Below, piece after piece: positions 19,322 to 28,234 of a stretch of 50,897 nucleotides of DNA (positions are counted from its first letter, which is position 1; each line of letters begins with the position of its first letter). The notes under the pieces are model-generated. The model saw only the letters and a program-made list of their open reading frames with translations, had not been told where the DNA came from and ran no database searches. The position numbers were made by a program, and so were the translations under genes. This DNA is from Candidatus Nitrosopumilus sp. (GTDB lineage: Archaea; Thermoproteota; Nitrososphaeria; Nitrososphaerales; Nitrosopumilaceae): contig JAONKT010000002.1 in NCBI GenBank assembly GCA_028377625.1, forward strand, positions 1 through 50,897, written 5' to 3'.

Positions 19322-19900
19322 TTAATCATCTAAGCTTTTTCTAGGTTTTATACTTAGATAAAATGCATGTGCACTAATAATAAATCCAGCAAGAAAAATT
19401 TTTGTTGCAAAAACTAAATTCCATGGACGATCGGGATCTGGATAAGCTACTGACAACATATCAATATCTGGAACTATTCCATTGATTACACCTGCTGTAA
19501 TCTGTGCATTCAGAACTGTAAAGTTGTATAAAACTTCATAGAAAGCAATTATTGTAAATCCAAGTAACATTAATTGGAGTAAAGCCATTCTAGTTCCAAT
19601 AATTTTATCTCCAGCAGTTCTTCTCCAACCAATTCTAGTAACACAATACCATCCAATTATTGTCGAAAAGAATATCCAAGTAGAAACCCTTGCAAAATTT
19701 TCAAAAGGAATGGTTGTATTGTGTATTACTTCACCCATAACATATGTTCCATTTGCTAACCATTCTAACATCGTTGCATAAACACCAAAAACTAATGATG
19801 AAATCATTATAGCTCCACAAGTGTAGAAAATATACAAATACACTTTGTAACCAGCATCAGTTTTTTCTAAATGTCTAGGTTTCATTCTATGATTTGCCAA
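19322..19900 (-). CDS. Four-TM integral membrane protein, function unknown
   Basis: Hydrophobic spans IFYTCGAIMISSLVFGVYATML, VSTWIFFSTIIGWYCVTRIGW, LLQLMLLGFTIIAFYEVLYNF, LVFATKIFLAGFIISAHAFYLSI. Confidence 0.8.
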   Translation of the reverse strand: MANHRMKPRHLEKTDAGYKVYLYIFYTCGAIMISSLVFGVYATMLEWLANGTYVMGEVIHNTTIPFENFARVSTWIFFSTIIGWYCVTRIGWRRTAGDKIIGTRMALLQLMLLGFTIIAFYEVLYNFTVLNAQITAGVINGIVPDIDMLSVAYPDPDRPWNLVFATKIFLAGFIISAHAFYLSIKPRKSLDD

Positions 19901-19967: not shown

Positions 19968-21050
19968 TTGGAAATACCCATAAACATTCCTTTTCTAGGC
20001 AAGGAAGAAATTTCAGTAGTTACTTCTATTCTTAAAACAGGCAAATTAACCTCTTCTTCAAATCATGGTGGAAAATATGTTCAAGATTTTGAAAAATCTG
20101 TTTCATCATTTGTAAATTCAAAATATACTGTTGCTGTAAATTCTGGTACTGCAGCATTACAAGCAGCACTATATGCATTAGATATTAAATTTGGAGATGA
20201 AGTACTAATCCCATCTTTCACTTTTGTTTCAACGGCAAATTCTGTCACTTCTACTGGTGCAAAACCTGTTTTTGTTGATATTTTAAAAGAAAATTTTACA
20301 ATGGATCCAGATGATCTTAAGAAAAAAATCACAAAAAAAACTAAAGCAATAATCCCTGTACATCTTTATGGTAATGTAGCTTATTTAGACAAAATTTCTG
20401 AAATTGCTAAAAAATTTAGTATACCAATTATAGAAGATTCAGCACAATCATTGGGTTCTACCTATAAGAAAAAACATACAGGAACATTTTTTGAAATGGG
20501 GTGTTTTAGTATGTATCCTGCAAAAGTAATGACTGCAGGGGAAGGTGGATTTATTGTTACAAACAATAAAAAATTTAGAGACAAATTACTAATGATTAGA
20601 AATCATGGAATATTGAATGGATCTGATACAAGATTACTTGGTCTTAATCTAAGATTACCTGAAATTAATGCAGCAATTGCAACAGTACAAATGAAAAAAT
20701 TACCAAAATTTTTACAAACTAGACAGAAAAATGCAGATTTGTTGTCCAAATTACTTTCTAAATTGAATCTTAATCTTCCACAACAACGAAAAAATGAAAA
20801 AGTTAATTGGTATCTGTACACAATTACAACATCAAAACGTAATACTCTTTTAAAAAAACTTAATGCAAAAGGAATAGGTGCAACTTCATATTATCTAAAA
20901 CCTGTACACAAAACACCATTGTATAAATCTAAAATCAAATTACCAATTACTGATTGGGCCTCTTCACATGTGCTCTCTTTACCAATTCATCCTAAAGTAA
21001 CTCAAAAAAATATTGAATTTATTGCAAAAACAATTTCTGAAATAATATGA
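19968..21050 (+). CDS. DegT/DnrJ/EryC1/StrS-family PLP aminotransferase
   Basis: IPFLGKEEISVVTSILKTGKLTSS, VNSGTAALQAALYAL, PSFTFVSTANSV, IEDSAQSLGSTYK, YPAKVMTAGEGGFIVTN; TTG start. Confidence 0.92.
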   Translation: MEIPINIPFLGKEEISVVTSILKTGKLTSSSNHGGKYVQDFEKSVSSFVNSKYTVAVNSGTAALQAALYALDIKFGDEVLIPSFTFVSTANSVTSTGAKPVFVDILKENFTMDPDDLKKKITKKTKAIIPVHLYGNVAYLDKISEIAKKFSIPIIEDSAQSLGSTYKKKHTGTFFEMGCFSMYPAKVMTAGEGGFIVTNNKKFRDKLLMIRNHGILNGSDTRLLGLNLRLPEINAAIATVQMKKLPKFLQTRQKNADLLSKLLSKLNLNLPQQRKNEKVNWYLYTITTSKRNTLLKKLNAKGIGATSYYLKPVHKTPLYKSKIKLPITDWASSHVLSLPIHPKVTQKNIEFIAKTISEII

Positions 21051-21523
21051 ATAAACTAGGTGATACTATTGGTAAAATTTGTGAAAAACTATTACCAATT
21101 TCTGAAGAATTCTATATTGGTAATACTGATTCATCAATCTGTATATGTACGCTATCTAGTATTAAATTATTAAAAGAAATAAAAAATTCTGAAATTATTG
21201 ATAAAATTGCAATTGTTGGAAGACTATTTACTGAAAACAAAGGAATTGACTCAATGATACAGCATGTAAATCAAAATAAAAAAATTAAAACAATTATTGT
21301 ATGTGGAAAAGAAGTTTGGGGTCATAAATCTGGACATTCATTATTTCAATTATATCAAAATGGAATTGATGAAAAAAATAGAATAATTAATTCAACAAGT
21401 CCTGATCCAATTTTGACTGTATCAAAGTCAGAAATACAGTATTTTCAAAAAGAAATTACTCTTGTAAATTTAATTAACGAAACAAATATTCAATTAATTA
21501 TTAATAGAGTTCAGAAAAATTAG
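21047..21523 (+). CDS. MtrA-like (tetrahydromethanopterin S-methyltransferase subunit A-like) soluble corrinoid-domain protein
   Basis: SICICTLSS...IVGRLFTENKGIDSMIQHVNQNKKIKTIIVCGKEVWGHKSGHSLFQLYQNGIDEKNRIINSTSPDPILTVSKSEIQYFQKEITLVNLI follows the MtrA cytoplasmic domain pattern; ATGA overlap with the upstream aminotransferase stop. Confidence 0.8.
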   Translation: MNKLGDTIGKICEKLLPISEEFYIGNTDSSICICTLSSIKLLKEIKNSEIIDKIAIVGRLFTENKGIDSMIQHVNQNKKIKTIIVCGKEVWGHKSGHSLFQLYQNGIDEKNRIINSTSPDPILTVSKSEIQYFQKEITLVNLINETNIQLIINRVQKN

Positions 21524-21864
21524 TAACCATTTTTTTGTCTTTCGTGATTAATTTGGTTTTTTCTCTTGTATTCCTCTAAAATATCATCTGGGGTTAATTT
21601 CAATTCTAATGATGCTTGAACTACAAAATGCCATATGTCAATTAATTCCTCTCTAGCCTCATTTTGATTAAATTCAGTAGGTGTTTTCCACCATTTCCAA
21701 TTTGTAGTTCTTTGTAATTCAACAGCTTCATGCATTATTGCAGTGCATAATGCAGAAACTCTACCCTCTGTATCTTTTGGATATCTATCTAATTTCATTA
21801 TTTCAGACAAACCTTTCTGAAGTTTGAAAATTTCATCTAATCTATCTTCATTTTTTTCTGACAT
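21520..21864 (-). CDS. All-alpha NTP pyrophosphatase / dimeric dUTPase-like protein
   Basis: AIMHEAVELQRTTNWKWWK...NQNEAREELIDIWHFVVQASLEL: ExxE...ExxD helices typical of the dUTPase_2/MazG superfamily. Confidence 0.78.
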   Translation of the reverse strand: MSEKNEDRLDEIFKLQKGLSEIMKLDRYPKDTEGRVSALCTAIMHEAVELQRTTNWKWWKTPTEFNQNEAREELIDIWHFVVQASLELKLTPDDILEEYKRKNQINHERQKNGY

Positions 21865-26824: not shown

Positions 26825-27355
26825 TTATTCTTTTTTTAGTTTAGATGCAATTTGTAGAGTTTCATCAACCATTTCTTTCAATCTATCTTTTGCACTTTCA
26901 TCTGAAATTTGATTATCTGTAAATATTTCTGTAGTTAGATAAACTGCTTTTGGATTTGTTATTACTCTAAAGTATGATAACAATTGTGTAATGACTGTTT
27001 GAACATCAACAAAACCAATATTTCCAGCAGCTAAAATTGCCATACCTGCAACTTTACCTTCTGTTTTTTTGTAATCAACATATTCAAAGAGATTTTTTAA
27101 TGCAGAACTAAAAAATGAATTATAAATTGGAGAGCCAATTAGCCACACATCTGCTTCCATAATGTCTTTTGCAGCATTTTTAGTTGCTTCATTATACTCT
27201 ACGTCAAATCCTCTATAACATTCAATTTCTCCATCTGAAAGATTGATAAATTTTGTTTCTGAATTTTTTGATTTTGTATATTCATTAACATATTTCATAA
27301 TTATCTGTGTATTTGCAGTTTTTCTAGGACTAGCTGAAATAACTACAATTTTCAT
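26825..27355 (-). CDS. NADPH-dependent FMN reductase / flavodoxin-like protein
   Basis: VVISASPRKTANTQIIM, DVWLIGSPIYNSFFSSALKNLFEYVDY. Confidence 0.85.
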   Translation of the reverse strand: MKIVVISASPRKTANTQIIMKYVNEYTKSKNSETKFINLSDGEIECYRGFDVEYNEATKNAAKDIMEADVWLIGSPIYNSFFSSALKNLFEYVDYKKTEGKVAGMAILAAGNIGFVDVQTVITQLLSYFRVITNPKAVYLTTEIFTDNQISDESAKDRLKEMVDETLQIASKLKKE

Positions 27356-27406
27356 AATTTTAACTATTATCCTTTGTATTTAATTCCTGCAAATTATAAA
27401 ATAAAA

Positions 27407-27499
27407 CGGGCTTGGAGGGCTTCGATCCCTCGACCTGTAACTTAGGAGGCTACTGCGCTATCCATGTTGCGCGTCAAATTGACTCTGCGCTACAAGCCC
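27407..27499 (-). tRNA. tRNA-Arg (anticodon CCU) with an 18-nt intron in the D-loop (27467..27484)
   Basis: Mature cloverleaf GGGCTTG TA GCGC AGCATGGATA GCGC A GTAGC CTCCTAA GTTAC AGGTC GAGGG ATCGAAG CCCTC CAAGCCC G after removing AGTCAATTTGACGCGCAA; all stems pair. Confidence 0.9.
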
Positions 27500-27529
27500 A
27501 GCAGAAAAAATATTCTAAATTATTTAAGC

Positions 27530-28234
27530 CTAATCAAGATTTGTTTGAATTAAATCTTGAATTTCTTTCCAATCTGAATTTTCTTTATGTTCCCATTTTT
27601 CATAATATACTACATCTTTTAGATCTAATCTTGGTAACCAACGTGCAGTTTCAAGATCTGGTTTATCAGCAAATTCATTTACATATCCTAAACACAAGTA
27701 TGCAACAGGAACTACATGTTCTGGTAATCCCAAAGTTTCTTTTAGAATGTCGTTTGAAAGAATACTGACCCAACCTAATCCTATTCCCTCTGTTCTTGCT
27801 GATAACCATAAATTTTGAATTGCACAACATACGCTGTACAAACCAGCTTCTGGAATACTTGATCTACCTATTACAAATGGACCAAATTTGGTTGGATCAT
27901 ATGTTACACAAAGATTGACAGGAGATTCTAAAATGCCTTCAAGCTTAAATGATAGATATTTTGATTTTTTTGGTTCTTCTACTATTTGAGATGAACGCTT
28001 TTTCTCTTCATCAAATGATTCTTTAATTTTCTTTTTAGTGACTTGATCTTTAATTAAAATGAAATTCCATGGTTGAGAAAAGCCTACTGATGGTGCATGA
28101 TGTGCAGCATGGAGGATTTTTGATAATTTCTCTTCTTCAATTGGTTTTGAGATAAAATGTGATCTAACATCCCTTCGTGAATAAATTGCCTTATAGAATC
28201 CTCTTTTTTCCTCATCAGTAAAATTAATTTCCAA
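27530..28234 (-). CDS. bluB: BluB-like 5,6-dimethylbenzimidazole synthase (nitroreductase family)
   Basis: FYKAIYSRRDVRSHFISKPI...AAHHAPSVGFSQPWNFILI...EGIGLGWVSIL...VPVAYLCLGYV. Confidence 0.87.
   Translation of the reverse strand: MEINFTDEEKRGFYKAIYSRRDVRSHFISKPIEEEKLSKILHAAHHAPSVGFSQPWNFILIKDQVTKKKIKESFDEEKKRSSQIVEEPKKSKYLSFKLEGILESPVNLCVTYDPTKFGPFVIGRSSIPEAGLYSVCCAIQNLWLSARTEGIGLGWVSILSNDILKETLGLPEHVVPVAYLCLGYVNEFADKPDLETARWLPRLDLKDVVYYEKWEHKENSDWKEIQDLIQTNLD

Follow-up and report, generated by a model that had tools for sequence, protein, structure and literature searches.

We propose, with moderate confidence, that ammonia-oxidizing archaea (AOA) possess an orphan soluble corrinoid carrier of the MtrA family that is detached from the Mtr complex and has been inherited as one AOA clade. 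The gene under study lies in the window, which is the whole stretch of 50,897 nucleotides of Candidatus Nitrosopumilus DNA analyzed here. An earlier reading, made from the letters of the window alone (the sequence-only reading), had described an open reading frame at 21047-21523 with a series of MtrA motifs in an archaeon of the ammonia-oxidizer type; all the quoted motifs were found, and the type of host was supported. The assembly that holds the window is 59% complete, so absences in that assembly mean little. The features at the locus are as follows.

19968..21050, + strand: DegT/DnrJ/EryC1-family aminotransferase (PF01041, E value 1.6e-106)
21047..21523, + strand: soluble MtrA-like corrinoid-domain protein, 158 amino acids (PF04208, 91 bits; MtrA fold)
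21230..21244, + strand: codons for Thr62-Glu63-Asn64-Lys65-Gly66 (Glu63 = MtrA Glu54, Asn64 = Asn55, Gly66 = Gly57)
21323..21325, + strand: codon for His93 (= the MtrA cobalt ligand His84; alignment to 5laa/8q3v; identical in 55/55 AOA homologs)
21520..21864, - strand: dUTPase_2/MazG-type gene, convergent with mtrA (PF08761, E value 7.1e-18)

A soluble MtrA domain in AOA

The Pfam profile of MtrA (PF04208) matched the 158-residue protein with an E value of 7.7e-26 and a score of 91.2 bits against a cut-off of 25, and the sequence matches in the PDB are MtrA chains (8q3v, 5laa, 5l8x, and 9qtq). An AlphaFold model built on 33 sequences, with a mean pLDDT of 86 and unreliable at residues 1 to 18, was compared with known structures using Foldseek. 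The best E value was 4e-13, and only MtrA structures were matched in the PDB at E values below 0.001, with TM scores of 0.76 to 0.80. Both of the checks on family membership put forward in the sequence-only reading, a profile search and a comparison of the predicted fold with MtrA, thus came out in its favor. The absence of a C-terminal membrane helix, also noted there, was borne out: the final helix (148-157) belongs to the domain itself, and the chain ends at residue 158, ahead of the juxtamembrane segment and helix of MtrA; therefore, the protein has no membrane anchor.

The gene is under purifying selection, with a dN/dS of about 0.2 relative to five relatives of 79 to 84% identity, and it is present as a single copy in 162 of 250 genomes of the class (146 of the 196 good ones). 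Together, these two observations place it far beyond chance. Most genomes of families f1, f2, f3, and f5 carry the gene. As follows from named relatives, f1 corresponds to Nitrosopumilaceae and genus g1 to Nitrosopumilus, and f2 and f3 are presumably Nitrosocaldaceae and Nitrososphaeraceae, respectively. Genera g7, g9, g13, g15, and g17 lack the gene, as do some individual genomes; it is degenerate in one genome (G098), and streamlined AOA do without it.

Relationship to known MtrA proteins

The protein was rejected as the MtrA subunit of the Mtr complex. It scored 83.9 bits with the equivalog model TIGR01111, the cut-off of which is 249; it has no membrane helix; and MtrH was not found in the AOA genomes searched (it is encoded in 6 of the 250 class genomes and in none from families f1, f2, f3, and f5). 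With a soluble NCBIfam subfamily, PRK00964.1-4, the score fell narrowly below the cut-off (151.2 versus 161 bits). The MtrA-DUF4346 family (PRK00964.1-6) was also rejected, with 97 bits against a cut-off of 568 and no match to PF14251 in the 158-residue chain. In a small tree, the AOA proteins formed one clade apart from methanogen MtrA, with support of 100/99.

The AOA protein shares with the cytoplasmic domain of MtrA (5laa, 5l8x, 8q3v, and 9qts) the fold, the cobalt-ligand histidine and its glutamate partner, the TENxGI loop, and the late YFQK/NLI segment. Unlike methanogen MtrA, to which it is 33 to 37% identical, it lacks the C-terminal juxtamembrane segment and membrane helix and has a partly altered nucleotide-tail pocket; its setting differs as well, AOA being aerobic and without MtrB-H. 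Methanogens also have soluble MtrA homologs of 170 to 180 residues (PMC4915002), which are likewise single-domain proteins with an intact ligand histidine; yet these are 60 to 97% identical to membrane MtrA, whereas the AOA protein belongs to a separate clade. Outside AOA, the closest BLAST match was an MtrA-DUF4346 protein of Planococcus, with 37.6% identity. Such proteins (PRK00964.1-6, here from Planococcus and Paraburkholderia) likewise contain a soluble MtrA domain and occur in organisms without Mtr. However, their chains also include DUF4346 and an N-terminal part that contains cysteine, and they reside in metal-resistance loci, whereas the AOA proteins consist of the MtrA domain alone.

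MtrA homologs in nonmethanogens are known in general (PMC4915002), and MtrAH has been described in many lineages with an unclear role (PMC9635834). We found no account of the AOA protein in the literature searched, a limited library that cannot prove that none exists. The viral contigs searched contained no relative of it.

The predicted cobalt-binding site

His84 of MtrA, itself hydrogen bonded to Glu54, holds the cobamide in the base-off state, with further contacts from Thr53, Asn55, and Gly57 (PMC4915002). His93 of the AOA protein, in the motif WGHKSG, aligns with His84, the position to which the sequence-only reading had assigned it. The conservation of this candidate ligand, which that reading had suggested checking, is complete: His93, Glu63, Asn64, and Gly66 are invariant in the 55 AOA homologs aligned, with T or S at position 62. 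In the nucleotide-tail pocket (Asp17, Tyr18, Thr53, and Asn64 of MtrA), the AOA homologs mostly keep positions 53 (T/S) and 17 (E/D), and Tyr18 and Asn64 are mostly replaced.

We consider it very likely that the protein binds a cobamide. It would bind the cell's own cobamide in the base-off/His-on mode, with His93 as the lower cobalt ligand held by Glu63. The chances that the cargo is a methyl group seem about evenly balanced; the protein would pass a group bound to the cobalt, with methyl as the likeliest, from one soluble enzyme to another. The corrinoid module of MetH works in a similar manner, as a His-on cobamide methyl carrier with a His-acid dyad. However, the B12 site of MetH (DxHxxG) is unrelated to that of the MtrA-like protein, and AOA encode the MetH module separately, in an 832-residue MetH subunit.

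A separate branch of MtrA-DUF4346 proteins, in family f16, has lost both the cobalt-ligand histidine and its glutamate partner (L051:8268-9053, L052:7868-8779, L053:7774-8574, and L071:5874-6668). With both residues gone, this branch may no longer be able to bind a cobamide in the same manner.

DegT and dUTPase as positional neighbors

As the sequence-only reading had described, mtrA starts inside the stop codon of the DegT gene (ATGA at 21047-21050), and a dUTPase-like gene is convergent with it, the 3' ends overlapping by 4 bases. That reading had gone on to propose a DegT-MtrA functional unit and a link to nucleotide metabolism. In Nitrosopumilaceae, the arrangement is indeed regular: DegT lies directly upstream of mtrA in 20 of the 20 loci with the gene called, and the overlap is short (4, 8, or 20 bases) in most of them, the longer apparent overlaps being artifacts of upstream start codons. 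The dUTPase gene is kept in place across Nitrosopumilaceae and in several f3 loci, such that it is convergent in two AOA families. Yet the whole mtrA region is syntenic in Nitrosopumilaceae, and in f2, f3, and f5, DegT is not the neighbor of mtrA. Conservation of the neighborhood across relatives, another check suggested earlier, therefore gave a split result, with the pair fixed in Nitrosopumilaceae and absent in other AOA families.

Genomes that have lost mtrA bear on this point. In G086, a Nitrosopumilus-type genome, a frameshifted mtrA remnant (L156:7290-7800) lies exactly between intact DegT and dUTPase genes, and in G063, G103, and G160, where DegT is also intact, there is no mtrA at this place. 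Since the region is syntenic and both neighbors outlive mtrA, the overlap with DegT is positional, and neither the DegT link nor the nucleotide link is supported; the dUTPase gene is an old neighbor on the opposite strand. That mtrA forms a functional unit with DegT or serves nucleotide metabolism together with the dUTPase is therefore highly improbable and largely refuted by the patterns of mtrA loss. We judge both genes to be positional neighbors and DegT to have no part in the mechanism. A 192-residue membrane protein without a Pfam match is encoded divergently from DegT (19322-19900, - strand) and also has a fixed position in Nitrosopumilaceae.

Candidate partner enzymes

The AOA genomes searched contained no URO-D-type methyltransferase and no full-length TIGR00284 protein. 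The pterin-binding protein other than MetH, checked in two genomes, scored as a true dihydropteroate synthase, above the cut-off of TIGR01496. The B12-dependent enzymes listed for AOA are methionine synthase, methylmalonyl-CoA mutase, and ribonucleotide reductase (PMC4303638).

The first of these raises the question of whether the MtrA-like protein could be a methyl donor for methionine synthesis, acting together with MetH or a MetE/core enzyme. Such a role has a counterpart in methanogens, where MesA and MtrA have been proposed for methionine synthesis, with MtrA as the predicted methyl donor for MesA (PMC7857596). However, the large subunit of the two-gene MetH of AOA contains Pterin_bind, B12-binding, and activation domains of its own, and the mtrA-like gene tracks neither synthase: AOA carry either the two-gene MetH or MetE-type genes, and the gene may be present or absent in both kinds of genome. 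A methionine-synthase role was rejected because of this distribution and MetH's own corrinoid domain; methionine synthesis is thus unlikely as the role of the protein, and its service as a donor to MetH or MetE is most improbable. The MetH and MetE-type synthases largely replace each other in AOA, and three genomes (G087, G186, and G224) match both.

Since the cobalt-binding site is kept and the known partner enzymes tested are absent, AOA probably run a so far undescribed B12-dependent step. AOA have been proposed as major global producers of cobalamin (PMC4303638), and a corrinoid protein that nearly the whole clade shares, its cobalt site intact, would add a use of B12 in these very abundant organisms. 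It would also show a Mtr-type domain working outside methanogenesis, in an aerobe.

A PPOX-fold protein and the cobamide genes

A PPOX-fold protein of the flavin or F420 type is encoded directly upstream of mtrA in 13 of the 14 f2, f3, and f5 loci examined; the two genes are often 1 base apart or overlap by 4 bases. By sequence, it is a PNPOx_N, PNPOx-like protein, and the nearest NCBIfam models are F420-dependent PPOX subfamilies, all with scores below their cut-offs. Most Nitrosopumilaceae have a strong ortholog, which is unlinked to mtrA except in genera g5 and g8; in most of the genomes of these genera that were checked, it adjoins the divergently transcribed BluB gene, 7 to 23 kb from mtrA. 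PPOX orthologs also occur without MtrA, in f4 and f7.

Among 138 AOA genomes, 88 have both genes, 18 have mtrA only, 11 have PPOX only, and 21 have neither (Fisher p of 3.8e-7, uncorrected for phylogeny). Independent pairs drawn from an RpoB tree, whose 75 genomes were selected to take in many discordant cases, gave no support for the association (median p of 1). A model in which the two traits depend on each other fitted better (p of 0.002 with the less complete genomes dropped and 1.5e-5 with all of them), with rates at the bound. Thus, adjacency is the main evidence for the link, and co-occurrence is suggestive.

The cobalt of the carrier would become oxidized in aerobic AOA and would be reduced again by the PPOX-fold protein. 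This assignment of PPOX as the reductase of the MtrA-like protein is tentative; His93 is retained in the MtrA-like proteins of genomes without PPOX. Accessory proteins that act on the cobalt of MtrA under oxidative conditions do exist: in Methanosarcina mazei, the protein MtrI caps the cobamide of MtrA when oxygen is present (PMC12774963). However, MtrI is a small helical zinc-ribbon protein and does not resemble PPOX.

The window also encodes CobJ (TIGR01466, 309 bits versus a cut-off of 246) and BluB (TIGR02476, 238 bits versus a cut-off of 150), both as named in the sequence-only reading. This proximity of cobamide synthesis genes would also suit a protein that carries no methyl group, one that acts as a chaperone or reservoir and hands its cobamide to methylmalonyl-CoA mutase, ribonucleotide reductase, or MetH, with PPOX as a corrinoid reductase. 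No methyltransferase partner was found among the families tested, and the position of PPOX, next to mtrA in most AOA families and next to BluB in g5 and g8, is consistent with such a function. Yet the protein has kept the His-Glu dyad that characterizes methyl carriers, and genera without the gene, such as g9, still carry MetH; therefore, the MtrA-like protein is not needed to supply MetH. We regard a chaperone or reservoir as rather unlikely and favor the orphan corrinoid carrier, which its ligand residues and its PPOX neighbor make directly testable.

A gene resembling NADPH-dependent FMN reductases lies close behind BluB (26825-28234, - strand). Its product could be the source of the reduced flavin that BluB consumes.

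Metal-resistance contexts of other MtrA proteins

A plasmid search yielded MtrA-DUF4346 proteins from the aerobic bacteria Planococcus and Paraburkholderia. On two Planococcus plasmids (L279:2444-6828 and L281:352-4736), the gene lies directly behind those for ArsR/SmtB, an HMA protein, and a heavy-metal P-type ATPase; another Planococcus plasmid (L278:464-1840) also encodes an MtrA-DUF4346 protein. The Planococcus proteins have a cysteine-rich stretch ahead of the MtrA domain. On a megaplasmid of Paraburkholderia sp. PGU19 (L280:5818-7846), the gene is divergent from that of a CadR/PbrR-like MerR regulator (148.5 bits, cut-off 151.45). In two non-AOA Nitrososphaeria (f9/f10; L048:145-2416 and L049:6819-9371), an ArsP_1 permease gene is followed by a soluble MtrA gene, with an ArsR gene after it in L048 and a DUF169 gene before in L049.

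MtaA has been reported to methylate arsenic in a methylcobalamin-dependent side reaction (PMC13262295), and methylarsenite is exported by ArsP (PMC6205960). The side reaction and the metal genes near MtrA-DUF4346 in Planococcus and Paraburkholderia, as well as the position of MtrA behind ArsP_1 in f9/f10, would agree with a corrinoid-dependent methylation or demethylation of metal(loid)s for detoxification. For the AOA protein, we hold this to be improbable: no metal regulator or exporter is present at any AOA mtrA locus examined, the AOA proteins have neither DUF4346 nor the cysteine-rich parts, and only three unrelated contexts were seen. A metal(loid) role is thinkable for the wider MtrA family. 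It is a long shot that the soluble MtrA proteins as a whole constitute an unrecognized B12-dependent system for metal(loid) methyl transfer, one that works with regulators and exporters of metals in some Nitrososphaeria and in aerobic bacteria and is stripped down in AOA to the MtrA domain and a PPOX reductase. The heavy-metal P-type ATPase of Planococcus has CSC in place of the usual CPC.
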